In this document: piece after piece, positions 36,646-57,200 of the stretch | How positions within the stretch are numbered: position 1 is the first letter of the stretch | Layout of the letters: each line of letters opens with the position of its first letter | Assembly (NCBI RefSeq): GCF_014274465.1 | Contig: NZ_CP060394.1 | Span: 5,704,001-5,768,000 of the forward strand | Origin: Alloacidobacterium dinghuense | GTDB lineage: Bacteria; Acidobacteriota; Terriglobia; Terriglobales; Acidobacteriaceae | Direction of reading: 5' to 3' | DNA: 64,000 nucleotides | The notes under the pieces: model-generated | What the model was told of the DNA's origin: nothing | The model's input: only the letters and a program-made list of their open reading frames with translations | The model's database searches: none | Translations under genes and position numbers: made by a program

Positions 36646-37249
36646 TTGTGAGCAAAAAGCACGCTGCGCAGCCATCGTTCTCGCCGCAGGTGCTTCCACA
36701 CGGTTAGGCCAACCGAAACAACTGCTCAGGCTGGATGGCGAAAGTCTCCTTCGCCGCACCGTGAGACTCGCGTTCGAAGCTGGCTGCTCGCCGGTCTTTG
36801 CTGTCCTTGGGTTCAATGCGCAACGTATGCAGCAGGAACTCTTAGTGTCTGGGGCGAAAGTCGTGGTGAATCCCAACTGGCGGTCAGGGATGGGTTCATC
36901 GTTGCGTTGCGGAATCTCTGCCTTGATGGCGGAAGATCCAGTGCCGCCAAAAACGATGCTTCTTGTCTGCGATCAGGCAAGACTGTCGGGGGAGAGTCTT
37001 TCGGAATTAATTCGGGTGAACGCGCAAGGCAGATCTCTGATTACAGCATCGCGTTACGCCAGCAGATTAGGCGTCCCAGCCATCTTCGACAAACAGCTAT
37101 ACGCCGATCTGTTGAAAGTCGAAGGCGATCAGGGCGCTCGCTCCGTAATCCAGCGCTACCTCGACCAAACCACTACAGTCGAATTCCACGACGGCATCAT
37201 CGACATTGACACCCCGGACGACCTAATAGACCTAGGCGTAAACAGCTAG
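36638..37249 (+). CDS. MobA/MocA-like nucleotidyltransferase for molybdenum cofactor
   Basis: A 203-residue NTP-transferase. The N-terminal AAIVLAAGASTRLGQPKQLL is the nucleotide-binding loop, and MLLVCDQARLSG holds the metal-binding Asp. GDQGARSVIQRY is typical of MocA proteins, which attach CMP to molybdopterin for xanthine-oxidase-family enzymes. The last gene of the molybdenum operon, it overlaps xdhC by 8 bases. CTP rather than GTP preference is inferred from its partners. Confidence 0.9.
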   Translation: MSDCEQKARCAAIVLAAGASTRLGQPKQLLRLDGESLLRRTVRLAFEAGCSPVFAVLGFNAQRMQQELLVSGAKVVVNPNWRSGMGSSLRCGISALMAEDPVPPKTMLLVCDQARLSGESLSELIRVNAQGRSLITASRYASRLGVPAIFDKQLYADLLKVEGDQGARSVIQRYLDQTTTVEFHDGIIDIDTPDDLIDLGVNS

Positions 37250-42262: not shown

Positions 42263-44152
42263 TTACTCTCGTGGATCGTCGGAGGTCGATCCATTGCGAA
42301 AATCTGATCCCTCTGTCAGCGGGATCTTGCGTTCTTTCGCCTGGCGTCCGAAGGGCATGCGAATCCGCAGCACTCTTTCGCGGGCGCGCTCGTCTTCAAG
42401 GTTCCTGGTTCTGGCGTGCAGCAGATCGTTGAGTGCCACCATGCCGACGATCTTCCCGTCACCACGCGGGTCGAGGACAGGAAAGCGCGTGAAGCCCGAC
42501 TCAGCCATTCGATTGACGACCGTGCGGAGAGGTTCGTCCGAGAAGGCCACCTGGGGATTCTTCGTCGCAATTTCGGAAAGCCTGACTCGGGCAGCCCGGT
42601 CCGGCATGCGTTGGTAGCGCTGGACCAACTGGTTCCGGGTCACCACACCTGCTAACTCATTGCCGGAACCGAGGACGGGGAAGAGATGCTGTCCCTTTGG
42701 ATTTTCAGTGGAATGGATGAGCTGATACGCCTCTTCCAGCGTTCCATCACTTGGCAGAACAACAACATTCGTCCTCATGACCTCTCGCACAAAGAGGATT
42801 TCGAGCGGATCCAGTGCGTATTCACGACTCAAGTGGTAACCGCGACGCGAAATTTTCTCGGTGAGTATGGAGCGCTTGAGTGTGAGCACCGTGAATGAAT
42901 GGGCGAGGAAGCATGCCACCAGAAGCGGCAGAAGCATGTTGAAGTCATGCGTCAACTCCAGGGCGAAGACAATGCCGGTAAAGGGAGAACGCATCGTCCC
43001 GCCAAGTATGGCGCCCATGCTGACAAGCGGCCAAAATCCGAGACCGAAGTGCGGAAGAAAGATACTCTCGACACCGCCCAGGGCAGCGCCCATCATCAAT
43101 AACGGTGCGAGTACGCCGCCAGAGGTGCCGGAACCGAGAGAAATCATCCAGATGGCCGACTTCACCAGAAGGACTCCAGCAAAGAGCGTCAGTGGAGCGT
43201 TTCCCTCCAGCAGCGTCCTGATCGTGTCGTATCCAACGCCGAGTGCCTGCGGAAAAATGAGACCTCCGATACCTACGAACACGCCGCCAATAGCGGGCCA
43301 CCACATCCAGTGAATAGGCACCTTCTGAAACAGATCTTCGGCAGCATAGACTCCGAGGGTCAGCAGGGCTGATAGCGCACCAGCGGCGAGGCCGGCGACG
43401 ACGCAACCGGCGAGTCCGTAGAGTCCGATGAAGGCCGGGTGCGAAGGAACGGGAAAAAGCGGCCCGAGTCCCAACAGGTAGCGCCTAGCCACACAGGCGG
43501 TAGCACTCGCCAACGCAACAGGAATCGCACTGCGGGGCTTCCATTCGAATAAGAGCAGTTCTACGCCAATCAGTACCGAGGAGAGCGGCGCCGCAAATGT
43601 GGCCGCCATGCCAGCGCATGCGCCTGCCACCAGCAACGTGCGGCGTTCCACACTCGTGAGGTGAAAGAACTGGCCAATCATCGATCCGAAGGCCCCGCCC
43701 GTCATGATGATGGGACCTTCGGCGCCAAATGGCCCGCCTGTCCCGATGGAGATCGCTGCTGATAGCGGTTTAAGTATGGCCAACCGTGGGTGGACGCGGC
43801 TACCGTTCATCAAGATAGATTCGATGGCTTCCGGGATACCGTGTCCGCGGATACGCTCCGACCCATATCGCGCCATCAGTCCGACAATGAGCGAGCCGAC
43901 GACGGGCACCGCAATCGCATAAACGCCGAGCCGGTTTCCTGTCGGTGAAACGAACGAGGTGTCGAACCGATGAAAGTAAGCGAGATTTGTAAAAAAGCCG
44001 ATCAGCTTTAGCAGAAACCACGCGACAAACGTGCTGATGACGCCGATCGCGATCGCAAGCAGCGAAATGGGAATAACTCGTGCAGTAGTCGTGAAATCGC
44101 CGAGTTCTTCGAGGCTGGGCTTGCGCTGTTGCCCCGCGGAATGAGAGGTCAT
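42263..44152 (-). CDS. ClC-family chloride channel/antiporter with CBS domains
   Basis: A 629-residue protein. Residues 1-430 are the ClC core: RGHGIPEAIESI at the selectivity position, GTGGPFGAEGPIIMTGGAFG with the gating Glu, and SGTSGGVLAPLLMMGAALGG. Two CBS domains follow (about 460-590: REVMRTNVVVLPSDGTLEEA and AFSDEPLRTVVNRMAESGFT), which usually bind adenine nucleotides. The start was set at MTSHSAGQQ because AGGAG lies 7 bases upstream and it overlaps the MarR stop by 4 bases (ATGA); a longer frame extends into the MarR gene. Confidence 0.92.
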   Translation of the reverse strand: MTSHSAGQQRKPSLEELGDFTTTARVIPISLLAIAIGVISTFVAWFLLKLIGFFTNLAYFHRFDTSFVSPTGNRLGVYAIAVPVVGSLIVGLMARYGSERIRGHGIPEAIESILMNGSRVHPRLAILKPLSAAISIGTGGPFGAEGPIIMTGGAFGSMIGQFFHLTSVERRTLLVAGACAGMAATFAAPLSSVLIGVELLLFEWKPRSAIPVALASATACVARRYLLGLGPLFPVPSHPAFIGLYGLAGCVVAGLAAGALSALLTLGVYAAEDLFQKVPIHWMWWPAIGGVFVGIGGLIFPQALGVGYDTIRTLLEGNAPLTLFAGVLLVKSAIWMISLGSGTSGGVLAPLLMMGAALGGVESIFLPHFGLGFWPLVSMGAILGGTMRSPFTGIVFALELTHDFNMLLPLLVACFLAHSFTVLTLKRSILTEKISRRGYHLSREYALDPLEILFVREVMRTNVVVLPSDGTLEEAYQLIHSTENPKGQHLFPVLGSGNELAGVVTRNQLVQRYQRMPDRAARVRLSEIATKNPQVAFSDEPLRTVVNRMAESGFTRFPVLDPRGDGKIVGMVALNDLLHARTRNLEDERARERVLRIRMPFGRQAKERKIPLTEGSDFRNGSTSDDPRE

Positions 44153-44625
44153 GCCGGTCTCCTGGAACCCCGGCCAGAATGGTGCACCACTGCCCAAAGA
44201 GATTTGGAAAGAGCAGGACCGGAAACTCGCAGTTCCTCGCGATGCAAGACTGAAAGTCGATGCAACAAGGTCTCGCCGTGCGCCGTAAGCTCCACCAACA
44301 CTTCACGATGATCGTGGTCCCCAGGCCGACGTCTTATGGCGCCCTGGTCAACAAGACGATTTACAAGTTCTACAGTACTGTGATGGCGAATGCAGAGTTG
44401 CTGAGAAAGTGCGGTAACCGTGGGACGAGTGCCCTTGGGCAAGCCCTTGAGTGCCAGGAGAAGTTGATGCTGATGGGGTTCGATACCCTTGGAACGGGCC
44501 GCTTCCTCGCTAAAGCGCAGGAATTGCCGGATGCGATGCCGAAACTCAGCAAGCTGGCGAAAGCCTGCTTCTGAAAGGTCCGGCTCGAGTGCTTCCGCAC
44601 GATGGTTATCCTCGCCGGGAACCAT
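44149..44625 (-). CDS. MarR-family transcriptional regulator
   Basis: A 158-residue winged-helix protein. HQHQLLLALKGLPKGTRPTV and ALSQQLCIRHHSTVELVNRL form the helix-turn-helix, and RPGDHDHREVLVELTAHGET is the wing. It overlaps the ClC gene by 4 bases, so it likely regulates its own unit in response to an unknown ligand. A CAACTTAGTTG palindrome 33 bases upstream could be its operator. Confidence 0.9.
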   Translation of the reverse strand: MVPGEDNHRAEALEPDLSEAGFRQLAEFRHRIRQFLRFSEEAARSKGIEPHQHQLLLALKGLPKGTRPTVTALSQQLCIRHHSTVELVNRLVDQGAIRRRPGDHDHREVLVELTAHGETLLHRLSVLHREELRVSGPALSKSLWAVVHHSGRGSRRPA

Positions 44626-44950
44626 GGAGAAGACCTACTATCTAAAGCGTATCACTGCAACTTAGTTGTTTGCCGCCAACTTGTAATATTGTCTCCCCAT
44701 CTGGGCCAGTCGGAAAATCACAGGAATAGTCTGTGCTACACGCAACTATCTAGGTCAAGCGTTGCGAAATCTCTAGGGTGCCGAATTCGACGACGTGAAG
44801 TACCGCCGCAATTGTGATCGCGCGGCAGCATGGTAATTCGGAATCACATGTTCATCATCAAGGCCATCGCTAGACGCCTACCGGTCGGCGAATATCTCTA
44901 ACGCCGATGGTGAACCACCTGGAGATAATTAGACAATCGCCAACTGCACA
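44626..44950. other. Intergenic region upstream of MarR-ClC
   Basis: No gene seen. Contains the palindrome CAACTTAGTTG at 44658-44668 and an AT-rich stretch beside it, which suit a promoter-operator for the MarR gene. The right end follows the narK stop. Confidence 0.4.
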
Positions 44951-46204
44951 CTACTGATATGTGAGTGCGTTGGAAGCCGTTCTTTCTGAATCTTCAGTTG
45001 CGAGGGCACGGCCGCCTGCGCCAACCCAGGTGCACGTCCACCGTCTTGCAACCAGTCGCATCATGATGAGAACCAGAAGAGCCAAAGCGGTATAGACAGT
45101 AAAGCCGATCGCATAGGAGCCGGTCTGCTGTTTCGATTGCCCAAGCAAGTTAGGAAGAATGGAGCCACCGAGCGCGCCGATCTCTCCGATCATGCTTCCG
45201 GCTACAGCAGTGGTAGCAGGCCAGCGCAGTGGAACAAGCTGAAAGGTTGCGCCATTGCCCGCGCCTAGGGCGGCGAAACAAAGCATAAATAAGAGAGTTG
45301 TGATGACGAGTGTCGGTGATGTCATGAGCCCGCAGAGTCCTGCGATGGCAATGAGAAAGACGGCGGTGAGAGTTGCGATGCCGCCAAAACAATCGGCGAG
45401 CCAGCCGCCGAGAACACGGGTAACGCTGCCGGTAAGAGTGGCGAGCACCGTAAGGCTTCCTGCCTCGATCTTCGAGACGTGAAACTGCCTGAAGTAAAAC
45501 GACGGCAGGAAAGTAGCAAGGCCTAGGAACCCTCCGAAGGTGATGATGTAGATGAAGTTGAAGGCCCAGCCATCTTTCTCCCAGAGACAGCTCAGATGTT
45601 CGGCGAGTTTCTGATGCTCCATGTCCGGCGGCTCCTGCGCGAGGAAGATCATCACGCATAGCGGCAGAAGCATGAAGAGGGCCGCGAATCCGTAGACATG
45701 TTGCCACCCAAAGTGCTGTGCGAGCCTTGGAGCAAGGAGCGCTGCAACGGCGGTCCCGCTGTTGCCTGCACCGGCGATGCCCATTGCGAGTCCTTTGTAC
45801 TGCCTGGGGAACCAGCCCGCGCCGAGCGAGAGCGCCACACCGAAGCTCGCTCCGGCAATTCCGAGCAGGACGCCCATGGCAAGCACATCGTGATAGTTCT
45901 TCACGAAGAGAAAGCCATAGAGCAGTGCGATTATGATGGCGGACATTTCCACGATGGCCGCATTCTTTCTGCCGATATACTGGGCGAGCACGCCGAGTGG
46001 AAAGCGCATAAAGGCTCCGGCGAGCGTGGGGATGGAGACCATGAGGCCGGTCTGTCCCTGGGTGAGATGAAACTGCTCCGAGATGAACGGCCCCATTGCT
46101 CCGTTCAGAACCCAGACCGCAAAGCTGAAATCGAAATACAGAAATGCTGCAAATAGCGTTGGGATATGCCCCGATTGGCGAAATGCCTTATAGTTTGCCA
46201 TCAT
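44951..46204 (-). CDS. narK: NarK/NasA-family nitrate/nitrite transporter (MFS)
   Basis: A 417-residue 12-helix major facilitator. The nitrate-signature-like stretches are GIAGASFGVALSLGAGWFPR and AGAGNSGTAVAALLAPRLA in the first half and GAGNGATFQLVPLRWP in the second; RFPLGVLAQYIGRKNAAIVE is the MFS loop 2-3 motif. It is the last gene of the nitrate cluster, 127 bases after the nitrate reductase gene, and should import nitrate or exchange it for nitrite. Confidence 0.9.
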   Translation of the reverse strand: MMANYKAFRQSGHIPTLFAAFLYFDFSFAVWVLNGAMGPFISEQFHLTQGQTGLMVSIPTLAGAFMRFPLGVLAQYIGRKNAAIVEMSAIIIALLYGFLFVKNYHDVLAMGVLLGIAGASFGVALSLGAGWFPRQYKGLAMGIAGAGNSGTAVAALLAPRLAQHFGWQHVYGFAALFMLLPLCVMIFLAQEPPDMEHQKLAEHLSCLWEKDGWAFNFIYIITFGGFLGLATFLPSFYFRQFHVSKIEAGSLTVLATLTGSVTRVLGGWLADCFGGIATLTAVFLIAIAGLCGLMTSPTLVITTLLFMLCFAALGAGNGATFQLVPLRWPATTAVAGSMIGEIGALGGSILPNLLGQSKQQTGSYAIGFTVYTALALLVLIMMRLVARRWTCTWVGAGGRALATEDSERTASNALTYQ

Positions 46205-46331
46205 TCGTCTCCAAGAAAGTATCTCGTGCTGCTGATATTCGAGGGCATAAACCTCGGGGTTCAGCTTTCCAGCGGCGGGGCCAGTGTATTCAGTTATTTA
46301 TGAAACTCTGCCAAGCTCTTCGGCTGCTGAT

Positions 46332-48497
46332 CTAATTCCGCGCGGAGCGTTCCACGCGTACGGCGCATTGCTTGAAATTTGGCTCACGCGAGATGGGATC
46401 ATAGGCCCCAAGCGTGACCATGTTTGAGTTTGACTCGGCAAAGTGGAACGGCATAAAGACCTGGCCGGGGGCGACGATACCGGTGATTCGCAGCTCGACA
46501 TTCTTAACGCTGCTGCGACGCGAGAAGACGGTCACGCGATCGTGCGGTCTTAATTGAAGCTGCGCCGCATCCGCGGGATTCATCTCCAGCCACGCGTTCG
46601 GCACCATATTATGCAGGAGGGCAACCTGCGCAGTCTTGGTGCGTGTATGCCAGTGCTCGACAGTGCGGCCTGTGTTCAAAATGAACGGGTACTCGTCATT
46701 GGGCTGCTCGATGAACGGCTCGCAGGGAACGGAATGAAGGCGCGCTTTGCCATCAGGGTGCTGGAAGATTCCGTCCTGATAGAGACGCGAGCCGCCCCAC
46801 TGGACTCCGCCGCGTTCTTCGATCTCCTGCCATGAGAAATTGCTGTAGTCACAGAGCCGTCCGTGAGAGATACGCTGCCATTCCGTGTATGCGTCCTCGG
46901 GCATCGTCCAGCCCGGGTAGAGTTCGTCGCGCACGCCAAGCCGTCCTGCAAGATCCAGGAAGATATTGAAATCTGGACGCGCTTCACCGGGAGGTGCAAC
47001 GATACGGTTGACTTTGCTGACGCGGCGTTCTGAGTTGGTGAAGGTGCCCTCCTTTTCCCCCCAGATGGCTGCAGGGAGAACGAGGTCAGCAAATTCGCTG
47101 GTTGGCGTGGGATGAAATCCATCCTGCACGACAAGAAAATCAAGGCTGCGCAAGGCCTGTTCGAGCACCGAATGATTGGGAAACGATACAACGGGATTCG
47201 TCGCGATGATCCAGAGCGCTTTGATTTTGCCGGAGACCGCGGCTTCGATGATGTCGGGGTACGCCAGGCCGCGCGCGGTCGGGATGCGATCAACGCTAAT
47301 GTTCCATAGCTTTGCCAGATCTTCACGATCTTCAACTTTCTCGAATTTGCGATAGCCCGGCAGGCTGGAAGCGAAGCCGCTCTCTCGCGTGCCCATCGCA
47401 TTGCATTGGCCGGTAATGGAAAAGGGCGAGGCTCCGACGCGGCCAATGTTTCCGGTAATGAGGGCGAGATTATTGATGGCCGCGACGGTGACCGCTCCTT
47501 GCGTGGAGTGATTCACTCCCATTGTCCAGCCAATGAAAGCGGCTCTGGCGCGTCCGTAAAGCAGCGCAGTGCGAATGAGGGTTTCTTCACTTAGGCCAGT
47601 GATTGCGGCAACGCGTTCAGGAGTGTATTCGGAGATGTATGCGGCGAACTCTTCGTAGCCTACGGTGTGTTGCGCGATGTAATTTTCGTCGATAAGTCTT
47701 TCGCGGATCAAGATGTGGGCGATGCCGTTCAGCAGGGCGATATCACTGCGCGGCTTGATGGGCAGATGCAGATCCGCCATCATCGCGGTCTTGGTCACGC
47801 GCGGGTCAACAACGATGAGGGTTCGCTTCTTGTTGCGATCGAGGCGCTGGCAAAGGATAGGATGATTGTCCGCAATGTTGGCGCCGATCAGCAAAATCAC
47901 GTCGGCATGTTCGAGATCGGCATATGCGCCGGGAGGCCCATCGCTGCCGAAAGAAAGTTTGTAGCCACTTACGGCGCTTGCCATGCAGAGAGTTGTGTTT
48001 CCATCGTAGTTGCGTGTGCGGAAACCGAGCTGTACCAGCTTGCCCAGTGTGTAAAACTCTTCTGTCACAAGCTGTCCGGTGCTGATGACGCCCAGAGCAT
48101 CGCTTCCATGTTTTTCCTGCAAAGCACCGATCTTCTCAATCATGGTGTCGAGCGCTTCGTCCCAGGAGACAGCTGTCAGCGCGCGATTCTTGCGCAGAAG
48201 CGGCGTCCTAGCTCTCCCTGGAGCGGTGAGGATGTAGTGTTCGCTTAATCCCTTGGGGCACAGCTTGCCGGCATTTACCGGATGCTCTGGGTTTCCGCGC
48301 ACGGTGACGGCCTTGCGTCCTTTGACGCCGACGAGCATGCCGCAACCGACCGAGCAATAGCCGCAGGTGGTTTTTACCCACGTATCAGCGACGCGTGAAG
48401 CTGAGATGAGACCGACCTCCACGTCGTAGCCGTAGGAGTATTTGCCTCGGCGTATGTCGATGCCCAGGGCGCGGCGAATATGTGTGAGAGCTTTCAC
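46332..48497 (-). CDS. Molybdenum nitrate reductase catalytic subunit, Nas/NarB type
   Basis: A 721-residue molybdopterin oxidoreductase. The N-terminal 4Fe-4S site is Cys45, Cys48, Cys52 (TTCGYCSVGCG) and Cys80. Cys171 in NTTLCMASAV is the predicted molybdenum ligand, as in Nas/Nap enzymes. The C-terminal MGD-binding domain starts near residue 600 (GRTVEHWHTRTKT). There is no Tat signal, so the enzyme should be cytoplasmic and reduce nitrate to nitrite for assimilation. Its start overlaps the stop of the DmsBC-like gene by 4 bases, which implies the two products work together. Confidence 0.9.
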   Translation of the reverse strand: MKALTHIRRALGIDIRRGKYSYGYDVEVGLISASRVADTWVKTTCGYCSVGCGMLVGVKGRKAVTVRGNPEHPVNAGKLCPKGLSEHYILTAPGRARTPLLRKNRALTAVSWDEALDTMIEKIGALQEKHGSDALGVISTGQLVTEEFYTLGKLVQLGFRTRNYDGNTTLCMASAVSGYKLSFGSDGPPGAYADLEHADVILLIGANIADNHPILCQRLDRNKKRTLIVVDPRVTKTAMMADLHLPIKPRSDIALLNGIAHILIRERLIDENYIAQHTVGYEEFAAYISEYTPERVAAITGLSEETLIRTALLYGRARAAFIGWTMGVNHSTQGAVTVAAINNLALITGNIGRVGASPFSITGQCNAMGTRESGFASSLPGYRKFEKVEDREDLAKLWNISVDRIPTARGLAYPDIIEAAVSGKIKALWIIATNPVVSFPNHSVLEQALRSLDFLVVQDGFHPTPTSEFADLVLPAAIWGEKEGTFTNSERRVSKVNRIVAPPGEARPDFNIFLDLAGRLGVRDELYPGWTMPEDAYTEWQRISHGRLCDYSNFSWQEIEERGGVQWGGSRLYQDGIFQHPDGKARLHSVPCEPFIEQPNDEYPFILNTGRTVEHWHTRTKTAQVALLHNMVPNAWLEMNPADAAQLQLRPHDRVTVFSRRSSVKNVELRITGIVAPGQVFMPFHFAESNSNMVTLGAYDPISREPNFKQCAVRVERSARN

Positions 48498-50071
48498 ATC
48501 TCACCTCCTCGCACGAACGTCAATGCCATATTGAGCGGAACGACCGAGACAAAAAAGAGATAGCGCGCGAGCAATACGCCTCCGAAAGCTGCGCCACAAG
48601 CAAGGCCGTACTGGTTGTTGAAAGCGAAAACACTGGATACCGCGACGAGCGTGAGGGAGGTGATCAGAAGAGCGCGCAGTTTCGGCGTGCTAAGAAGCGA
48701 GGCTGTTGCACGCTTTTCAAAAAACTTTGTGCGATGAAGACGTAGCAGGCGAGTTCCCTGATTTGTCAGCCAAAAGGTGGCAGCGCATGCCGCAGGCCAT
48801 GCAGAGAAGTCTGCAGCTGCGTGTGAAAGAGGAAATTGTTGCAGCAGAGAAAGTGTTGCCATCCAGGATGGGACTCTGCTCAGCAAAGGCGCACATGTGG
48901 AACCAACAACTGCTGCGCTCAATAGAAAATCGAGTGGCGTATGCGCCATATTCCACGAGGGCCGCGCGGGAACAAGATAGATGAAGGCGCTGGCGAGAAC
49001 ACCCGCGATACCAAGGATTGCAGCAACCCATGCGACTGCATCGAGCGCAGCCGGGGATACCGGAAGCACCTTAAACACTCGCAGCCATGAGACCGCTGTG
49101 ATCGACGCGAGCGCTCCGAAGAAGAGGCCGAAGAGTAGCACTTCGCGGCTGAGCCACGAGCGCCGCCACATCTTAACCGCACGCCATGCGTAGGCAGGCC
49201 TTCCGAGGTGAAAGATAGAGATGTTGAGCGTGGAGGCTGTCGCGACGAGCAGCAGCGTGAGCACCAGAGCGCCGGCTGCGCGATTGGCGAGCGAAACGAT
49301 AAGCGACCCTGCGACTGCCTGAATGAGCGTCGTCATGAAGACGAGCGATAGATGGGCGTGCTCAGGACGAATGCGGTCCATGTCGACGCGTTCGAGCACA
49401 GCCACCGAGCTTTCCGGAAGGGTGATGCGTGTCGTGGAGATTGTTTGCCTCGCTGCAGGCATGCCGGGTGATTCGGCCATGGAGTAATCAGCGCGCCACG
49501 CATCGACATTGACGATCTCGATCGAAATAGCGCCGTCTGGGCAGGCATTGACGCAAGCTGGCTCACGGCCATCGCTGAGCCTGCCATGACACATGTCGCA
49601 CTTTCCTACGACACCGCGCTCCGGGTTGAATTGCGGCACGCTGTAGGGGCAGTTCCAGACGCAGTACTGGCAACCGATGCACGCGTCCGCGGAGTGCAGC
49701 ACAATTCCCGTGAGTGGATCTTTTGTGTATGCGTTGACTGGGCAGCCCCGCAGGCAATCCGGATCGAGACAATGGTTGCAGCCCATTGAGAGGTAGTGGC
49801 GGCGGGTGTCAGGGTAGATGCCGCCTTCGATTTCCCCAATACGTCGCCAATGAAGGTCTGCTGGGTTGCCATTCTGCTCATTGCATGCGACCTCGCAGGA
49901 ACGGCAGCCGATGCACTTCGTCATATCGAAGTGGAAGCGGTATTGTTCACCGCGCGCGAGCGGACGGTCCGGAATCAGCGCGGGGGCCGTCACTACCTCA
50001 TCGAGTGGAGCGACGGTGACTCGCACGAGGCCATCGCCGACACCTATGCGCTCATGTAGCGGTAATGACAC
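48494..50071 (-). CDS. Fused DmsB-like ferredoxin and DmsC-like membrane anchor subunit
   Basis: A 525-residue two-part protein. Residues 45-190 hold four 4Fe-4S sites (CIGCRSCEVAC, CNHCLDPDCLRGCP, CIGCQYCVWNCP, CDMC with CVNACP). Residues 240-520 have about eight membrane helices as in DmsC/NrfD-type quinol-oxidising anchors. In E. coli DmsB and DmsC are separate chains. Placed between diflavin reductase and nitrate reductase genes, it probably feeds quinol electrons to the nitrate reductase on the cytoplasmic side. No signal peptide was seen. Confidence 0.88.
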   Translation of the reverse strand: MSLPLHERIGVGDGLVRVTVAPLDEVVTAPALIPDRPLARGEQYRFHFDMTKCIGCRSCEVACNEQNGNPADLHWRRIGEIEGGIYPDTRRHYLSMGCNHCLDPDCLRGCPVNAYTKDPLTGIVLHSADACIGCQYCVWNCPYSVPQFNPERGVVGKCDMCHGRLSDGREPACVNACPDGAISIEIVNVDAWRADYSMAESPGMPAARQTISTTRITLPESSVAVLERVDMDRIRPEHAHLSLVFMTTLIQAVAGSLIVSLANRAAGALVLTLLLVATASTLNISIFHLGRPAYAWRAVKMWRRSWLSREVLLFGLFFGALASITAVSWLRVFKVLPVSPAALDAVAWVAAILGIAGVLASAFIYLVPARPSWNMAHTPLDFLLSAAVVGSTCAPLLSRVPSWMATLSLLQQFPLSHAAADFSAWPAACAATFWLTNQGTRLLRLHRTKFFEKRATASLLSTPKLRALLITSLTLVAVSSVFAFNNQYGLACGAAFGGVLLARYLFFVSVVPLNMALTFVRGGEM

Positions 50072-50109
50072 TCCAGGCTTCCTCTCAGTTCAGCAATTCA
50101 AATGTGTGA

Positions 50110-51933
50110 TCAATAAACGTCACGGTGATAGCGATGTTCGTCCTTCAAGTTGCGGACGTATTCCTTAGCGCTTTCATGACTCATGCCACCCTGCTTCTCG
50201 ATAATCGCGTGCAGCGTGGTGTCCACGTCTTTCGCCATGCGCGATGCGTCGCCGCAAACATAAATGCCTGCGCCATCCTGCAGCCATGCCCAGAACTGCG
50301 GGGCTTGTTCGAGCATTCTGTCCTGTACATAGACTTTGTGCTGCTGGTCTCGAGAGAATGCCGTGTCGAGACGTGTGAGGTGGCCGTCGGCAAGCATGCC
50401 TTCGAGCTCGTCGCGATAAAGATAATCGTTCGCCGAATTGCGCTCGCCAAAGAAGAGCCAGTTACGCCCTTTGGCCCCTATGACGCGACGCTCATGCAGA
50501 AATGCACGGAAGGGAGCGATGCCAGTACCAGGACCGATCATGATCACTGGTGTATCGGGGTTTTGGGGAAGGCGAAATTTCTTGTTTGGCTGAATATAGA
50601 TCGGAACGCGTTCGCCCACGGGGACACGATCAGCAACCAATGTTGAACATACGCCGCCACGTTCGCGATTGAGCGAACGGTAGCGCACAACTGCGATGGT
50701 TGTATGAACTTCTCCCAGATGCGTCGAGGGGCTTGAAGAAATGGAGTAAAGCCTGGGCGTCAGCTTGGGCAGAATGGCGACAAGATCCGCCGCATCGTGA
50801 ATGACGCCGGGGCACTCTTCAAGAAGATCGACGAGACCGCGCTCATAAACATACTTCTCCAGATGCTCTTGCTGCTCCGTGGCGAGCAGGCTCAGGAGGG
50901 TTTTGCACCGGCCGGTAGTGGCGTAGCGCTCGATCATCTTCCGGCTGAGTTTGGTAACGACGAGATGATGACGAAGTGCCACCTTGAGAGGAAGCGTCCC
51001 TGCTTTCGGAATCTCTACCGGCTCCTCGCCACTGAAATGAAGCGCGCGCAGAATGTCTTCGACCAACGCTGGATCATTATGCGGGATAATGCCGCAAGCA
51101 TCTCCTGCATCGTACCTAATACCGGAGTCCGCAATTGACCATGTTAGGTGCAATGTCGACTTGCTCGATCCGTTCCGCGTAAGCGAGCGTTTTTCAACCA
51201 GCGTCGAAAAGAATGGATTGTCGCGTGAAGGGGATGCGGAGGCAGTTGGAGTCGGGGTGGCAGCTGGTGCTGTGACTTCAGCGGGAGCACGAGTCGAAGC
51301 TGAAGCTACCTGATCGAGATTCAGAGCAGGCACATTGCTCTCAGTCACAGGCGCTGCCGCGATAGCCTCGAAGCGCTTGAATAACTCTTGCCTCCAACGC
51401 GCAAAAGGCGCATCGATGTCGACATCGCACTCAACTCTCTCGCAGATGCGATTCGCGCCGAGCGTGGCGAGTTTGTTGTCGAGGTCGATGCCGAACTTGC
51501 AGAAAGTCTCGTAGTGCCTGTCGCCGAGTGCGAAGACTGCGTACTGGAGATTTTCATAGCGAGGGAAATGTTCGACGCAAACTTGCTCATAAAAAGGTTG
51601 CACTGCGTCGGGAGCGTCTCCCTGGCCGTAGGTGCTCACGATGAAGATCGCGTATCTCTCGTCGGCGAGAGCAGCAGATGTATAGGCTTCGAGCGAAATG
51701 GCGGAAGCGCTGTACCCCTTGAGCTTGAGCTCTTTTGTCAGCTTGCGCGCCAGGCCTTCTGCGGTTCCAGTCTGTGAAGCGTAGAAGACGGCAATCTTCA
51801 GCGGCTCGGCCTTTACGGCAACAGCAGGAGCAGGGGCGCTCGAGAAAACGCCGGCAAGGAAGCCGTTCAGCCATGCACGCTGTTCTTTTGAGAACGGGGC
51901 ATCATTTGGTACAAATGGGACTATCTGCGGCAT
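50110..51933 (-). CDS. CysJ-like NADPH diflavin reductase
   Basis: A 607-residue flavoprotein with a flavodoxin FMN domain (IAVFYASQTGTAEGLARKLT, about residues 45-190) and a ferredoxin-NADP reductase-like half (LYSISSSPSTHLGEVHTTIA for FAD, VIMIGPGTGIAPFRAFLHER and YVCGDASRMAKDVDTTL for NADPH), ending in HRYHRDVY as CysJ does. The ATG at MPQIVPF is used; the upstream TTG would overlap the nirA end. It lies 5 bases after nirA, so it most likely supplies electrons to that siroheme enzyme. Residues 13-29 resemble the nirA N-terminus. Confidence 0.9.
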   Translation of the reverse strand: MPQIVPFVPNDAPFSKEQRAWLNGFLAGVFSSAPAPAVAVKAEPLKIAVFYASQTGTAEGLARKLTKELKLKGYSASAISLEAYTSAALADERYAIFIVSTYGQGDAPDAVQPFYEQVCVEHFPRYENLQYAVFALGDRHYETFCKFGIDLDNKLATLGANRICERVECDVDIDAPFARWRQELFKRFEAIAAAPVTESNVPALNLDQVASASTRAPAEVTAPAATPTPTASASPSRDNPFFSTLVEKRSLTRNGSSKSTLHLTWSIADSGIRYDAGDACGIIPHNDPALVEDILRALHFSGEEPVEIPKAGTLPLKVALRHHLVVTKLSRKMIERYATTGRCKTLLSLLATEQQEHLEKYVYERGLVDLLEECPGVIHDAADLVAILPKLTPRLYSISSSPSTHLGEVHTTIAVVRYRSLNRERGGVCSTLVADRVPVGERVPIYIQPNKKFRLPQNPDTPVIMIGPGTGIAPFRAFLHERRVIGAKGRNWLFFGERNSANDYLYRDELEGMLADGHLTRLDTAFSRDQQHKVYVQDRMLEQAPQFWAWLQDGAGIYVCGDASRMAKDVDTTLHAIIEKQGGMSHESAKEYVRNLKDEHRYHRDVY

Positions 51934-51938
51934 TCCTG

Positions 51939-53717
51939 CTAACTCACTTTCTCTTCGCAAAATGACTTAAGGGACGCGATGTCATGTCGGCGGCTGAAGG
52001 ATAGAAATGACTCCTCGGGCGCACGGAGGCTCAAATAGGCGGTGAAGAGCCGCTCTATGACCGGAGTCAGATCGGTAAACTTGATGGCGGAGATCAATTC
52101 GCGGGCCAGCCCTTGATCCTTGTCTGAACCGCCGCCAATGACGACCTGATATCCTTCCTCGCCTTCTACTTTTGTGCCCAGCAAGCCTATGTCGCCGATG
52201 TAATGTTGTGCGCAGGAGTGTGGGCACCCTGTGACGTGCAGATTAACTGGCTGAACGATGGGGAAGCGCTCATCGAGCGTCATAGCCAGTTCAATGGCAT
52301 GCTTCTTGGTATCAGTGGCGGAGTAGCGGCAACCTTTGTTGCCTGTGCAGGCAACAGTGCCGGACGTGACTGTACCGGGAGTGATTTTCAGCCCGACGGC
52401 AAGAAGCGATTCTGTGGCTGCTTCGAGGTTTTGCGTAGGCACGTTGGGAATGATGAGGTTCTGCCAGACGGTAAGACGCATTTCGCCTGTACCAAAACGC
52501 TCGGCTATGTCGGCAAGCGCGATCATTTGGCTCACTGGCAGACGGCCAACGGGTACGGCCACTCCAATGTAGTGCAGACCTGGCTGCCGCTGCGGATGGA
52601 TGCCTATGTGTCCGGAGCGGTTTATCGGCTTGCGCGGCTCGCATTTTTCCGCGGAGAAGTGGAGCAGAGGAAACGCAAGCCGCTTTTCTGTTTCTTCCAC
52701 AAACTTTGCGATGCCCCAGCGATCTATGAGATATTTCAGGCGCGCTTTCTTGCGGTCGGTGCGATCTCCATTCTCGGAGAAGACGCGAGTCATCGCGGCG
52801 GCCACTGCGACAGTCTGGCTCGGGTCGAGCAGAAGGCCGCAGTCTGCGGCGAACTGCCCGTGTCCGGTAATGCCGCGGAGCAGCACGCGAAAATAAACGC
52901 CCCCGGGGATGTCGTGTTCTTCGCCAACCCTCACGGGAACAAAGCCGATGTCGTTCGTGTCGGCAAGCGTACTGATCGAGCCGCCGTTGTCGAATGCGAT
53001 GTTGAATTTGCGCGGGAGGCCGTACAGATCGCATGAATTGAGGATGTAGTAGTGCATCCCCTCTGCGAGCGGTGTTACGTCATAGAGTTCCTCGGGATCG
53101 ATTCCGGTAATCGGCGATGCAGTGATGTTGCGGATGTTGTCCGCGCCTGCGCCGCGCGAGGTCATGCCGATAAAGTCGAGCTTTGTAAGAACGCGAACGA
53201 TGTCTTTTGGCTGAAGCTCACGAATTTGCAGATTGCCGCGTGTCGTAATATCGGCGCGGCCCGATCCCCAGTCGGACGCCATCTGCGCAAGGCCGCGCAT
53301 CTGGTGCGCCGTGAGAATGCACCCGGGCACGCGCAGCCTGAGCATGAACGAATCCTGCGCCGGAGCAACATAAAAGAGTCCATGAAATTTGAATCGGAAA
53401 ATGTCTTCGGCAACGGGCGCGCGGTTTTCATTTGCGTGCGCGAGGAGTTTGTCCCAGATAGCAAGCGGGTTCTCTTCGCGCTTCCAGCGCTCTTCCTTGC
53501 ACAAATCAGAGATCGGCGTTCCGAAGTATGTCTCCTCAGGTAGTTGCGCGGCCTGATTCGCAACTCCAGATACAGGGTCACTGGTAATCAATCCGGATGT
53601 GGTATCGCCAGCGAAAGGAACGCTGCCGCGCTGCGCGATACCAGCAAAGAATCCCTGCAGGTAGTGCTTCTGCTCCTCCGTGAAATCCACCGCGTTTGTG
53701 AATAGTTCTGCTGCCAT
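51939..53717 (-). CDS. nirA: Siroheme ferredoxin-type nitrite (or sulfite) reductase
   Basis: A 592-residue siroheme/4Fe-4S reductase. Cluster and siroheme ligands are Cys457, Cys463, Cys498 and Cys502 (ACTGNKGC and TGCPHSC); GLHYIGVAVPVGRLP and MRLTVWQNLIIPNVP are typical of NirA. The ATG beginning MAAELFTNAV was chosen because GAAGGA lies 9 bases upstream; the frame extends upstream without support. It catalyses six-electron reduction of nitrite to ammonium, or sulfite to sulfide. The nitrate genes that follow favour nitrite. First gene of the leftward cluster. Confidence 0.9.
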   Translation of the reverse strand: MAAELFTNAVDFTEEQKHYLQGFFAGIAQRGSVPFAGDTTSGLITSDPVSGVANQAAQLPEETYFGTPISDLCKEERWKREENPLAIWDKLLAHANENRAPVAEDIFRFKFHGLFYVAPAQDSFMLRLRVPGCILTAHQMRGLAQMASDWGSGRADITTRGNLQIRELQPKDIVRVLTKLDFIGMTSRGAGADNIRNITASPITGIDPEELYDVTPLAEGMHYYILNSCDLYGLPRKFNIAFDNGGSISTLADTNDIGFVPVRVGEEHDIPGGVYFRVLLRGITGHGQFAADCGLLLDPSQTVAVAAAMTRVFSENGDRTDRKKARLKYLIDRWGIAKFVEETEKRLAFPLLHFSAEKCEPRKPINRSGHIGIHPQRQPGLHYIGVAVPVGRLPVSQMIALADIAERFGTGEMRLTVWQNLIIPNVPTQNLEAATESLLAVGLKITPGTVTSGTVACTGNKGCRYSATDTKKHAIELAMTLDERFPIVQPVNLHVTGCPHSCAQHYIGDIGLLGTKVEGEEGYQVVIGGGSDKDQGLARELISAIKFTDLTPVIERLFTAYLSLRAPEESFLSFSRRHDIASLKSFCEEKVS

Positions 53718-53944
53718 GACAGAAGATCCTTCGTATGTCGTTGCTTCGCTCGCGAAATTGCGATTGTTGCGTGCAGATGCGTGACTGCGATCAAACACCG
53801 CAGACTGCGGCGGATGCAAAGCTCTTCGCGGAGCGTGACGATTGTTAGGAGTTTTCTGCCATGACACGGCGTGGTGTCATGATTGCTGGCTGCGAGGTCC
53901 GCTTCCAGTTGAAGCGATAGTACCTTGGATCGACTCACTATCGC
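53718..53944 (-). promoter_or_regulatory. Structured leader region before nirA
   Basis: In the nirA direction five inverted repeats occur: GCGATAGT/ACTATCGC with a 15-base loop (53944-53914); CGCTTC/GAAGCG with a 5-base loop (53916-53900), overlapping the first by 3 bases so only one can form fully; ATGACAC/GTGTCAT with 6-base loop CACGCC (53880-53861); GCTC/GAGC with 6-base loop CGCGAA (53834-53821); CCGCA/TGCGG with 3-base loop (53810-53798). A small GAAG-GAT-CTTC hairpin covers the ribosome site. No U-run terminator is seen. ANTAR-RNA control is plausible because an ANTAR gene is divergent. Confidence 0.45.
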
Positions 53945-53991
53945 AACGTGGAAATGCGTTATGAGCGCAATTTTTCGCTTGCAGACAGGGA

Positions 53992-54014
53992 TTGTTTATC
54001 GCATGTATAAACAA
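53992..54014. promoter_or_regulatory. Inverted repeat in the nirA-hemD-ANTAR divergent promoter
   Basis: TTGTTTAT and ATAAACAA, a perfect 8-bp inverted repeat with a 7-base spacer, in the AT-rich centre between the divergent genes. A candidate operator for an unknown regulator; no known consensus was matched. Confidence 0.4.
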
Positions 54015-54169
54015 AATCAATTGCGACACTCCACCGATTATTTCGTGCAAAGATATTAATTGAAAGCCCAAACAGGCGGCGCAGACAGCTGTAGTGCGTG
54101 TTTCGCGACATGCAAATATCTTGCGAGAGAGTCGCGCTCCAAAAGCAAAGCCCGTTATGGAGGATTGCG

Positions 54170-55855
54170 ATGGCGCACGCAAGTTTTAATGGTTTGCGGG
54201 TCCTGTCGCTTGAGTCTCGCCGCGCGATCGAGGTTGCCAAACTAATTCGCACATACGACGGTGAGCCGCTGATAGTATCTGCCATGCGCGAGGTGCCGGC
54301 TTCGTCTCATAAGCAGGTCTTCGAGTTTGCGAACGGCCTTATGCACTCGGACTTTGACCTGGTTGTTTTTCTTACCGGCGTGGGCGTGCGCACGCTGTTG
54401 AACGTCGTCGAAACGAAATACGATCGTGAAGCGTTTCTCACTGCACTGCGCTCGGTTAAGGTAGCATGCCGTGGTCCGAAGCCATCGAGTGTCTTGAGAG
54501 AGCTGAATGTGCCAATCGTCGTTTCTGCGCCTGAGCCGTGTACCTGGCGCGAGATGTTGTCATGTCTTGATACTGAATTTGGCGACTCGTTAGGCCAATT
54601 CCGCGTAGCGGTGCAGGAATACGGCGCTTCTAATCCTGAGCTGCTCTCTGCTCTCACAGAAAGAAGCAAGGAAGTCATAAAAGTCCCTGTATATCAGTGG
54701 GCGCTACCCGATGATCTGCAGCCACTGCGTGAATGCGTGCTCGGGATTGCAAATGGAAGTGTCGATGTCGTGCTGTTTATGACGGCTGTCCAGGTGATTC
54801 ACCTCTTCCAGGTAGCCGAGCAGATGAATTATGTCAACGAGCTACGTCAGGGACTTGAGGCTGTTGCTGTGCTCTCAATCGGACCAACGACCACAGAAGA
54901 GTTGCGACACTATGGCGTTACGCCTGATTTCGAGCCCTCACGCCCTAAGATGGGCTTCCTGGTAAATGAGGCAGCGCAATATGCAGGCCGCTTGCTGGAT
55001 GAGAAGCGCAGCAAAATGCTGAACCTCGGTCCGCGCGGGGGCGTAGCGGCGGCCACAACAGCGCGCGATGTTGAAGAGCAACCTGCGCCAGTTAAACGTG
55101 TAGCGCCATCCACGCCGGCCATGGCGGGCTTTCGCGACGGTCTTGCAGCCTTCGACTTTCTCCATGAAATCAGTAGCCGCTTTGCTTCCGCGGATTCTTT
55201 TCACGTTGTCCTGAACCGTATCGTCGACTTTGTCTCAACTCTCATTCCTTGCGATTCATGTTTTATCTATGTTCTGGAACAGGACAAGTTACTGCTACGC
55301 GCCTCCAAAAATCCGCATGCGGATGTGGTCGATCATCTGGGAGTAAAGATCGGCCAGGGCATCACCGGCTGGGTGGCACAGCACCGTGAACCCGTTGCTA
55401 TTGCTTCCAACGCAGCGAACGACCCGCGTTTCCAGGTGTTCCGCAACCTGCCCGAGGATCATTTTGAGGCGATTCTCTGTGTTCCGATACTCTGTGCGAG
55501 CAAAATTGTCGGTGTTATCACGCTGCAACATCGCAAGCCTTATGATCACAAGCAGCAAGAGGTCAGGCTGCTTTCCATGATTGGCTTTCTCGTTGGAGCA
55601 GAAATAGAGCGCGCACGGCTTGAAGATAAGAATGTGGAGCTTTCTGACCGGCTTGAAACCCGCATCGCTGTAGACAGAGCGAAAGGCATTTTGCAACGCG
55701 ATCTTGCGATTGATGAGAGCGAAGCATACCGCATGATGCAAAGAGAAAGCCGGCAACGCCGCAAATCAATGCGTGAAATCGCGGAAGCCGTCCTGCTCAG
55801 CGATGAGCTTAAGACCGTGCGCGGGACCATTGAACAAAAGCAGCATAAGGGTTAG
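54170..55855 (+). CDS. HemD-like domain fused to GAF and ANTAR domains (probable RNA-binding regulator)
   Basis: A 561-residue fusion. Residues 1-280 resemble uroporphyrinogen-III synthase (LRVLSLESRRAIEVAKLIRT, DLVVFLTGVGVRTLL, VACRGPKPSSVLRELNV, VDVVLFMTAVQVIHL). Residues 328-480 are a GAF domain (SFHVVLNRIVDFVSTLIP, GITGWVAQHREPVAIASNA). Residues 490-550 are an ANTAR domain (RIAVDRAKGILQRDLAIDES, EAYRMMQRESRQRRKSMREI). ANTAR domains bind paired hairpins in leader RNAs and antiterminate, as NasR does in nitrate operons. The ATG follows GGAGG at 6 bases. Divergent from nirA, it is likely a nitrate-cluster regulator, not a housekeeping HemD. Confidence 0.88.
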   Translation: MAHASFNGLRVLSLESRRAIEVAKLIRTYDGEPLIVSAMREVPASSHKQVFEFANGLMHSDFDLVVFLTGVGVRTLLNVVETKYDREAFLTALRSVKVACRGPKPSSVLRELNVPIVVSAPEPCTWREMLSCLDTEFGDSLGQFRVAVQEYGASNPELLSALTERSKEVIKVPVYQWALPDDLQPLRECVLGIANGSVDVVLFMTAVQVIHLFQVAEQMNYVNELRQGLEAVAVLSIGPTTTEELRHYGVTPDFEPSRPKMGFLVNEAAQYAGRLLDEKRSKMLNLGPRGGVAAATTARDVEEQPAPVKRVAPSTPAMAGFRDGLAAFDFLHEISSRFASADSFHVVLNRIVDFVSTLIPCDSCFIYVLEQDKLLLRASKNPHADVVDHLGVKIGQGITGWVAQHREPVAIASNAANDPRFQVFRNLPEDHFEAILCVPILCASKIVGVITLQHRKPYDHKQQEVRLLSMIGFLVGAEIERARLEDKNVELSDRLETRIAVDRAKGILQRDLAIDESEAYRMMQRESRQRRKSMREIAEAVLLSDELKTVRGTIEQKQHKG

Positions 55856-56488
55856 AAAACAGTGGCATCTATCCCCCCTAAAATTCATTAGATCCAACAA
55901 AGAAACCCGCACTGACGGCATCTGCTTTAGCTCAAGCTTAGCTCGGATTTAGTTCACTGAGGCAAGTTCGGGATTGCCGGTCGTCCCAATCGACTTCAGA
56001 CTCTCGACAGGAAGAGCAATTTGCCTATTTTTTGAGTGGACGGTTGAACATCACAACAGAAGAGTGTTTTTCATGTGGCGTACGACCCGATTCCAAGACG
56101 TCGCGGATGATTGCTTCTCCATTGAGTTGAGACGAGAACCCTCAGCCTGCATATCTTATGCTTTCCTTGCCTACAGAGCAGGTCGCGACTATATCCGGTC
56201 TCCTGAACGAGTGGCGGCTACTCGGGGAGTAGCGATGTGCCTGCAGTCAGGTGTTGCAAATCGCCGATGCTCATTTCGCGCAGAGTCAGGCTTGGGAACG
56301 TGCTTTGGCTGATCGCGGCAGTAGGCGGGGTCAGACGGTCAGGGCAAGTGTATCGGCCACCCTCGCACTCATTCGCGCGTTTCACTCGTGCATTGACGAC
56401 TAGAGGTCCCTTTGTGTCTGATCGAGTTAGGATAGGCGCATCGGCTGGGTGTTCCTTCACATAAAACAAGTACCTATTGGGGAATCCC
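55856..56488. other. Intergenic region, no convincing gene
   Basis: A plus-strand frame at about 56158-56403 reads coding-like (MLSLPTEQVATISGLLNEW, then a stop, then VLQIADAHFAQSQAWERALA) and could be a decayed gene; I cannot assign it. A 112-codon open frame in another phase at 55974-56312 has no ribosome site or motif. The region before 56489 should hold the promoter of the next gene. Confidence 0.35.
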
Positions 56489-56528
56489 ATGCGGAAGAAT
56501 CGTTTCAAACTCATCGCTTTGGTCTTTC

Positions 56529-57200
56529 TTGTTCAGCTTGGCCTGCCTGGGGCAACCGGCAGCGGCGCAGGCAGAGAAGGCTCCGTATCCGGCCATGGCT
56601 CCTGTAGATGAGTATTTGATTGCCGACGAGAATACTGAAATCGCGCTGGCCCGCAGTGCTGCTCCGGCATCCATTTCAAACGGAGCCGAGGTGATGGTCC
56701 TGGGACGGAAGGGATTCACGACCGCAGTAAAAGGCACGAATGGCTTTCTCTGCGTAGTGGAGCGGTCATGGGGCGCCACCACCGACGCTCCGGAATTCTG
56801 GAATCCCAAAATCCGCTCCCCCATTTGCTTTAATCCGCAGGCCGCACGAACGTTTGCGCGCATCTTCCTGATGAAGACCAAACTGGTGCTGGAAGGAAAA
56901 TCGAAAGCGGAGATCGTGGCGGCGACCGCTTCGGCACTGGATAAGAAGGAACTGCCCGCGCTGGAGCCCGGAGCGATGTGCTACATGATGTCGAAGCAGC
57001 AGTACTTAAACGACCAGGGCGTGAGTTGGCACCCTCATTTGATATTTTTTGTCTCGGGCGACGCGGCGAAAAGCTGGGGAGCCGATCTGCCGGGTTCGCC
57101 GATTATGGCTGCGGATGACCCTCAGGAACGGACCACGATCCTCATGGTCTGGGTCGGCAAGTGGTCCGATGGGTCGCCTGCTCCGCCGATGGAACACTAA
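56529..57200 (+). CDS. Small exported protein with a likely frameshift in the signal peptide
   Basis: The conserved body begins EKAPYPAMAPVDEYLIADEN and includes LCVVERSWGATTDAPEFWNP, MCYMMSKQQYLNDQGVSWHP and GADLPGSPIMAADDPQERTT, a family of unknown function seen in Acidobacteria. In this frame the only start is a TTG giving a very short leader (FSLACLGQPAAAQA). A well-placed ATG at 56489 with GGGGAA upstream encodes a proper signal N-region (RKNRFKLIALVFL) in another frame and then stops at about 56612. A single-base indel near 56525-56560 would join the two, so this is a recent mutation or a sequence error. Confidence 0.65.
   Translation: MFSLACLGQPAAAQAEKAPYPAMAPVDEYLIADENTEIALARSAAPASISNGAEVMVLGRKGFTTAVKGTNGFLCVVERSWGATTDAPEFWNPKIRSPICFNPQAARTFARIFLMKTKLVLEGKSKAEIVAATASALDKKELPALEPGAMCYMMSKQQYLNDQGVSWHPHLIFFVSGDAAKSWGADLPGSPIMAADDPQERTTILMVWVGKWSDGSPAPPMEH

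Follow-up and report, generated by a model that had tools for sequence, protein, structure and literature searches.

We analysed a 64,000-nucleotide stretch of the Alloacidobacterium dinghuense genome (NCBI RefSeq assembly GCF_014274465.1, contig NZ_CP060394.1, positions 5,704,001 to 5,768,000 of the forward strand; hereafter the window, with coordinates counted from its first base), in which a regulator gene at 54170..55855 (+) faces a nitrate-assimilation operon headed by nirA. The regulator is a 561-residue chain that combines a uroporphyrinogen-III-synthase-like HEM4 domain (54233..54964, residues 22-265; PF02602, E 4e-33), a GAF domain (55202..55606, residues 345-479; PF01590, E 8e-16) and an ANTAR domain (55640..55795, residues 491-542; PF03861, E 2e-15), all encoded on the plus strand and all three above the Pfam cut-offs (for ANTAR, 56.8 bits versus 27.3). 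On the minus strand, nirA (51942..53717) encodes a siroheme nitrite reductase of the NirA family (NF007126, 808 bits versus a cut-off of 523). The same strand carries genes for a CysJ-like flavoprotein reductase (50110..51960; Pfam/NCBIfam), a NasB-like Fe-S protein fused to a DmsC-like membrane anchor (48494..50071; Pfam), a nasA-like molybdopterin oxidoreductase (46332..48497; Pfam/NCBIfam) and a probable nitrate/nitrite transporter (44951..46204), which is named narK by reading of the open reading frame (ORF) only; an ORF homologous to this putative narK sits 3' of nasA in relatives.

The fusion ORF has an alternative, longer start at an in-frame GTG (54098); the ATG at 54170 has GGAGG closely upstream, and the alignment of relatives' sequences begins there. 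An open frame of at least 500 residues was present in 54 further fetched loci, several of which are repeats of one genomic place. In the AlphaFold2 model (mean predicted local distance difference test score, pLDDT, 83.5; predicted template modelling score, pTM, 0.51; residues 289-304 and 312-342 at pLDDT <50), a single helix of coiled-coil type (residues 462-512) runs into the ANTAR domain, and the Foldseek matches of the model were GAF domains and the uroporphyrinogen III synthase of Thermus thermophilus. The GAF domain contains a CDSC motif (C361, C364); 38 of 38 fusions have both cysteines, and of the 18 standalone GAF-ANTAR proteins 17 have the first and 17 the second. The ANTAR search found no second ANTAR gene in the window's genome (6.27 Mb, one contig). 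By contrast, a second HEM4 gene (C1:2116361-2117053) scores as canonical hemD, with 210.6 bits versus 117.4 for the fusion, and the fusion gene is not the sole hemD of this genome. Among the papers listed by our searches of one open-access library, judged partly by title, we found none that describes a HemD-ANTAR fusion.

We investigated how widely the fusion is linked to nitrate genes. From 297 genomes sampled in the phylum, we retrieved 18 full-length fusion loci other than that of the window, each with 20 kb of sequence, and 14 of them were divergent from nirA and its operon; those not located by nirA were L043, L044 and the second copies L046 and L047 (numbers prefixed L and G are our own labels for loci and genomes). 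In a sample of 200 genomes of the family, the window's own included, the fusion was found in 33 genomes and NirA in 22 (E <= 1e-150 for both); all 22 were among the 33, and NirA at this threshold occurred in 0 of the 167 fusion-less genomes. These counts do not represent 200 independent trials, because the genomes are related and 54 of them miss 90% completeness or 5% contamination. The fusion was split over two frames in two of the 33 genomes (G309, G383). Among the best 80 of 198 GTDB relatives with named loci, nirA, nirB or other nas/cysJ genes lay near the fusion in 61 (nirA 48, nirB 7, other nas/cysJ 6), and 19 had none within the stretch; 24 of the 80 repeat an already fetched locus, and without them the 56 loci comprised 33 with nirA, three with nirB, five with other nas/cysJ genes and 15 with none. 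The nearest named carriers were Acidobacteriaceae, and those with nirA included Acidipila rosea, Granulicella rosea, G. mallensis, Terriglobus roseus, T. albidus, Acidicapsa dinghuensis and Paracidobacterium acidisoli. In addition, a tetrapyrrole methylase gene, by our reading of the uroporphyrinogen-III methyltransferase (SUMT) type, adjoined the fusion in seven of the 80 named loci (L244, L245, L269, L276, L281, L284, L286), TP_methylase was found by Pfam in L097 and L098, and a siroheme-synthase-like dehydrogenase gene lay about 2 kb from the fusion in L103. An earlier note on this DNA had described a HemD-GAF-ANTAR fusion divergent from nirA, had regarded linkage to nitrate genes and a separate complete hemD as informative, and had likened the chain to Rv0260c. 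The domain assignment and the conserved linkage hold, the separate hemD exists, and HemD-winged-helix-turn-helix regulators of the Rv0260c/NnaR type have been published as nitrate/nitrite regulators (PMC6277429, PMC11162112).

The nirA leader contains a conserved pair of hairpins. A sigma-70-like promoter (TTGCGA-18-TACTAT; 53917..53946, minus strand), identified by eye from an alignment of 15 leaders, is followed by hairpin P1 (53859..53882, minus strand; 9-bp stem, hexaloop CACGCC) and hairpin P2 (53821..53834, minus strand; GCUC[CGCGAA]GAGC, loop in brackets). In most of the 15 aligned leaders, promoter-like sequence (TTGC, about 17 bases, TACTATC or TATACTC; by eye) was kept, with the two hairpins 3' of it. 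P2 conformed to GCTC[CNNGAN]GAGC in 15 of 15 leaders, and P1 typically consisted of GGCAC or GACAC, a loop, and GTGCC or GTGTC. Both loops carry a pyrimidine (C, sometimes T/U) at position 1 and G at position 4 (Y1/G4; C1/G4 in P2), whereas the published ANTAR target has two stem-loops with hexanucleotide loops carrying A1 and G4 (PMC8164766, PMC3369931). Canonical A1/G4 pairs were found in 0 of 32 nirA/nasB operon-head leaders, and this motif was rejected. Conversely, paired Y1/G4 hexaloops occurred in 13 of the 32 versus 0.45 expected from dinucleotide shuffles, in a comparison that was not fully blind because the Y1 rule had been read from part of the same data. The 13 comprised 10 P1-P2 pairs, two variant pairs and one pair of P2 with another hairpin. 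Taken by single first letters, pairs were found in 10 leaders for C1 (0.21 expected), one for G1 (0.11) and none for A1 (0.09). If the complete 9-bp stem of P1 is taken, the P1-P2 linker of the window is 24 nt; with stems cut at 6 bp, the linkers of the 10 P1-P2 pairs were 23-31 nt (8 of 10 above 25 nt), and those of the two variant pairs were 17 nt, compared with a range of 2-25 nt reported for ANTAR targets (PMC8164766).

P1 covaried across the leaders. We aligned 21 sequences (A2), leaving out the rows with 8-base loops (L040, L041) and choosing some rows by inspection (L104, L111 twice, L105nas). G4 was present in both loops of all 21 rows; the first loop base was C in 19 and T/U in two for P1, and C in all 21 for P2. 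RNAalifold predicted P1 (five pairs) and P2 (four pairs) and no other structure, and the 12 named pairs had 86.3% of cells paired, versus 22-49% on sliding. The covariation score was 0.152 versus 0.097 in shuffled alignments, with none of 500 shuffles as high. P2 hardly varies and all covariation lies in P1, so the P2 stem says little by itself. A model match (E <= 0.05) was obtained in 24 of the 33 non-repeat named nirA leaders, and these 24 sites, from named loci that repeat no earlier locus, served as an independent set; their covariation score was 0.145 versus 0.080, again with none of 500 shuffles as high. Six of the nine match-less leaders show CTC-N6-GAG with C1 and G4 (L220, L226, L229, L232, L260, L279), a GAGAC/GTCTC-type hairpin with T1 and G4 occurs in match-less L255, L260, L265, L267 and L279, and L265, L267 and L279 contain GCAC[CATGCC]GTGC; the pair in these last three is the variant pair of L106 and L108. 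Rfam returned three snoRNA matches on 44000-57000, all under their gathering scores, which we took as chance.

The hairpins follow the genes when operons are rearranged. In the 1.54 Mb of loci retrieved, the pattern GCTCCNNGANGAGC was counted 38 times versus 1.6 expected from base composition; seven of the 38 are repeats of the same places, and 26 of the 31 distinct places lie in nirA, nasB or nirB leaders, with five elsewhere. All 26 pattern sites used lie on the same strand as their gene. In L105, L106, L108 and L111, where nasB-nasA is served by a separate promoter, a hairpin site lies in the nasB leader, and in L107 a site lies 5' of nirB. A model trained on nirA, nasB and nirB leaders (R1) gave further matches, most of them weak (E-values 0.005 to 2.2), in leaders of gene types outside its training, on the same strand as the genes: porin (L105, L092, L034), formate/nitrite transporter (L095), a narK-like ORF (L105), and family c7 (L036-L041), which has no Pfam match and appears outer-membrane-protein-like by eye. 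Both hairpins are clear in the extra sites of L105, L092 and L095, with P2 as GCTC[TCCGYT]GAGC; the P2 loop has seven bases in L036 and L037 and starts with A in L110, and elsewhere only P1 is clear. Among the 80 named loci, some of which repeat training genomes, R1 gave 54 matches (E <= 0.05): nirA 36, nasB 9, porin 4, c7 2, nirB 1 and unassigned 2. At 30 bits or more, R1 matched in 20 family genomes, all with the fusion, 16 of which had supplied training sequences. In the window's genome, the one strong match was the nirA leader (57.1 bits; a training sequence) and the next scored 20.3; nine weak matches there (13-20 bits) were taken as chance, the four best (17-20 bits) lying inside or antisense to open frames. 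We likewise took as chance nine matches (22.7-29.5 bits) in eight fusion-less genomes, seven of which lie inside open frames, with those at L162 and L169 outside.

The domains, the linkage, the co-occurrence and the conserved dual-hairpin leader with its covarying P1 are direct results of computation. We propose, with a probability of roughly 70%, that the fusion is a one-component RNA-binding regulator that acts on P1-P2 of the nirA operon leader and lets the operon be expressed. A coiled-coil ANTAR dimer would be controlled by the GAF domain and by HEM4, which probably binds a tetrapyrrole precursor of siroheme and so serves as a sensor. This dimer would grip P1 and then P2 in the nascent nirA leader, with the loop guanine (G4) flipped out as in EutV, and hairpin binding would permit expression of nirA-cysJ-nasB-nasA-(narK). 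In relatives, the leaders of nasB, nirB, porin, nitrite transporter and narK-like genes would be targets of this regulator too. In favour stand the single ANTAR gene and the one strong RNA site of the window's genome, the paired Y1/G4 hexaloops, the covariation of P1, the motif's movement with rearranged operons, the co-occurrence of fusion and NirA, the kept G4-contact residues of EutV, the HEM4 relatives found beside nitrite reductase genes and the SUMT-type genes next to some fusions. Binding of the hairpins by ANTAR, dimerisation, activation as the direction of control, and the ligand are four points that we infer. Since the fusion of these soil Acidobacteria stands beside nitrate genes and matching hairpins of a variant type lie in their leaders, the switch for nitrate use probably operates on RNA, through a regulator in which two known kinds are united. 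The earlier note had assigned control of the nirA leader RNA to the ANTAR part; this RNA arm is well supported by comparison, in that a dual-hairpin RNA is conserved, although its loops are not A1/G4 and terminators are not enriched after P2.

The comparison with EutV is in line with the proposed contact to G4. In the published structure of EutV with RNA, Tyr164 is the stacking partner of G4, which also contacts Arg142, Lys149 and Glu160; A1 is free of contacts, and the loop-plugging Met172 is essential (PMC8934654). We mapped residues by alignment to EutV chain 6wsh, with a numbering offset of two of our own. The G4-contact residues are kept in the fusion as R498, K505, E516 and Y520, the tyrosine in 37 of 38 fusions. 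As a working hypothesis on specificity drawn from these alignments, the G4 contact may be kept where the loop base is constant, and the loop-side residue may differ where the loop differs. Arginine within the segment that follows the EutV Met172 position was rejected as the loop determinant, because EutV, AmiR and Rv1626 have basic residues there too.

Several observations weigh against this reading. On the RNA side, loop position 1 is C/U and not the canonical A; the P1 loop has 7-8 bases in six of the 21 A2 rows (six bases in 15); and several leaders, among them L034, L040-L042, L045, L048-L051 and L101, lack P1 or have an imperfect one. The number of further pair types in A2 was unremarkable (169 of 500 shuffles), as were doubly changed pairs (77/500) and pair types (71/500) in the independent set, where a +2 slide yielded more doubly changed cells than the true register (15 versus 11) and RNAalifold recovered P2 alone, because several P1 rows were misaligned. 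On the protein side, the EutV Met172 position is R528, with arginine in 38 of 38 fusions and also in 16 of 18 standalone GAF-ANTARs, and the loss of the essential methionine counts against simple ANTAR membership. In the window's fusion, EutV Lys143, Arg168, Asn173 and Arg177 are replaced by I, Q, Q and S; the Lys143 position, I499 in the window, is K in 36 of 38 fusions, and across the fusions the Arg177 position is S/T/P and the Arg168 position Q/H. On the genome side, 11 of the 33 fusion genomes lacked NirA at the family threshold; in two of these 11 (G330 at L110, G427 at L109) the nirA cluster is broken or incomplete. The system works like an ANTAR/leader-RNA system, yet its RNA is not a canonical ANTAR target by the published definition, since position 1 is not A.

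Classical ANTAR action is antitermination, and overlap of P2 with a terminator is not general even in known ANTAR-target sets. Intrinsic terminators after P2 were not enriched in our leaders (3 of 26 versus 2.84 expected), which speaks against the proposed reading; attenuation through Rho is a candidate output step. Alternatively, control may be translational, with P1 and the nirA ribosome site mutually exclusive and ANTAR binding freeing the start codon. Complementarity of P1 to the ribosome site and start is strong in the window (z -4.2), L092 (-4.7), L095 (-6.3) and L036 (-3.8). Across leaders, however, strong pairing was limited to some, also a point against the proposed reading: z was below -2 in six of 22 (mean z -1.1), the scoring picked a hairpin other than P1 in several rows, and of the six, L105 was scored at a non-P1 hairpin and L045 is without clear P1. 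Moreover, forcing P1 and P2 opens the window's ribosome site only slightly (0.14 to 0.24). We therefore rejected the P1-ribosome site switch as a general mechanism and consider it rather improbable overall, while keeping it as a possibility for the window and its close relatives.

The HEM4 domain raises the question of whether the input is a sensor or an enzyme. In a tree of 62 HEM4 domains, 18 canonical ones fell on one side of a branch (100/100) and the other 44 on the opposite side; the 15 fusion HEM4s formed one group (94/95) among standalone acidobacterial relatives, and Deinococcus proteins lay in the same part of the tree. The NnaR-type rows were also outside the canonical HemD clade (L173 and L203, assigned to NnaR from their length and neighbouring genes, and L206, unannotated, by its place in the tree). 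T69, G70, G72, R101 and K104 were found in all fusion, standalone, Deinococcus and NnaR-type rows and are not the canonical majority residues. Tetrapyrrole sensing has been proposed for NnaR (PMC11162112), and by analogy putative tetrapyrrole sensing by the HEM4 domain of the fusion is plausible. The rival explanation is a trigger enzyme, in which HEM4 is an active uroporphyrinogen III synthase that provides for the siroheme of nitrite reductase and the same chain regulates through ANTAR. Tyr175 is common to fusions (15/15), standalone (22/22) and canonical (18/18) proteins alike, and the T. thermophilus synthase, the closest solved relative by sequence and fold, carries the same TGxG and RGxK, so that the fusion's HEM4 clade is not callable inactive from sequence; the SUMT-type genes adjoining some fusions point in the same direction. 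Against this, a canonical-clade second HEM4 gene was present in 18 of 18 checked genomes with fusion-type HEM4, and the HemD domain of the related Streptomyces coelicolor NnaR is described as inactive in reports that cite other work for it (PMC6277429, PMC11162112). We regard the trigger enzyme as unlikely.

The fusion-type HEM4 is also associated with nitrite reductase outside the fusion. In Deinococcus, a standalone HEM4 relative lies 3' of nirB-nirD, and in L122 and L127 a standalone HEM4 lies 3' of a nirA-like match (nitrite/sulfite-reductase-like) and an ORF that by eye resembles a formate/nitrite transporter (FNT). The link between fusion-type HEM4 and nitrite reductase thus exists with a winged helix-turn-helix (NnaR, published), with ANTAR, or with no output domain.

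In a further alternative, an unrelated transcription factor would bind the hairpin sequences as DNA operators, and the fusion would act elsewhere. P1 and P2 are inverted repeats and their arm covariation would fit an operator too, which also tells against an RNA reading. The P2 loop, however, is asymmetric, with C1, G4 and mostly A5 constrained and positions 3 and 6 free; the hairpins lie 3' of promoter-like sequence; the strand of the site is that of the gene at every pattern site used; and the window's genome has a single ANTAR. DNA operators are accordingly highly improbable. It is equally hard to credit that the linkage is owed solely to a single inherited island, with the fusion a general nitrogen or redox regulator: the four phylum loci not by nirA and the fusions of L096 and L099 by ORFs read as larE-larC-larB agree with it, but the hairpin motif moves with rearranged operons and nirB replaces nirA in some loci.

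The proposed RNA-binding regulator combines two known kinds, with an input half of the NnaR kind and an output half of the NasR kind. Like the fusion, NnaR (SCO2958, MSMEG_0432, Rv0260c, MAB_3520c) has been reported as a one-component regulator of nitrate/nitrite assimilation with a HemD-like N-terminal domain (PMC6277429, PMC11162112), which lies outside the canonical HemD clade as in the fusion, and nirB and a SirB-type chelatase gene are found nearby in the rows that we called NnaR by length and neighbours (L173, L203). NnaR differs in having an OmpR-type winged helix that binds DNA, whereas the fusion has GAF-ANTAR and a predicted leader RNA target. NasR of Klebsiella (NIT-ANTAR) likewise controls assimilatory nitrate genes through leader hairpins (PMC7496416, PMC3369931), but as reported has a nitrate-sensing NIT domain instead of HEM4-GAF, A1/G4 loops and a leader terminator. 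EutV of Enterococcus (REC-ANTAR) shares R142, K149, E160 and Y164 at the G4 contact and differs in Met172 (arginine in the fusion), A1 loops and two-component input. HemD of T. thermophilus (3d8n, 1wcw) resembles the fusion in fold, TGxG and RGxK, and was deposited as a synthase without regulator domains.

A more specific version is possible but speculative: HEM4 would read hydroxymethylbilane or uroporphyrinogen III, and an ANTAR dimer with the invariant Arg528 in place of the Met plug would select a new Y1/G4 class of dual-hexaloop RNA, through which siroheme supply would govern the entire regulon for taking up and reducing nitrate in Acidobacteria. What the HemD domain does in NnaR has been described as unclear (PMC11162112), and the fusion would offer a second system, in another phylum, for testing what this domain reads. 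A defined RNA family and a natural exchange, with Y1 for A1 in the loop and Arg for Met172 in the protein, would allow a test of ANTAR target choice, and the model predicts a nitrate regulon for common soil bacteria.

Other arrangements of these domains were observed. The 18 standalone GAF-ANTARs lie at L052, L055, L058, L060, L061, L063, L070-L072, L113-L117, L119, L121, L130 and L131; L121 has a weak hairpin pair close to its GAF-ANTAR gene, and L113 and L114 contain a split form of the fusion, with HEM4 and GAF-ANTAR as two same-strand genes about 2 kb apart. In L069 and other f18 genomes, a HEM4 of the fusion's clade occurs in open frames of about 600-720 residues; the longest ORF tested in L069, possibly in the wrong frame, gave no Pfam domain. 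The second full-length fusions L046 and L047, in G195 and G036, lie away from nitrate genes and have in common a neighbour family (c39) with no Pfam match. The two genomes with lar-like ORFs beside the fusion are without NirA at the family threshold, and a LarB-type AIRC domain was found in L096. In L053 (G233), a truncated HEM4 match lies beside a two-frame narK match, as if the island were decaying. Within the window, an inverted repeat TTGTTTAT-N7-ATAAACAA at 53992-54014, 5' of the nirA promoter-like sequence, is a candidate operator for a DNA-binding regulator, and two ORFs at 35527-37249, by eye XdhC/CoxI-like and a MobA-type nucleotidyltransferase, lie about 8 kb from narK.

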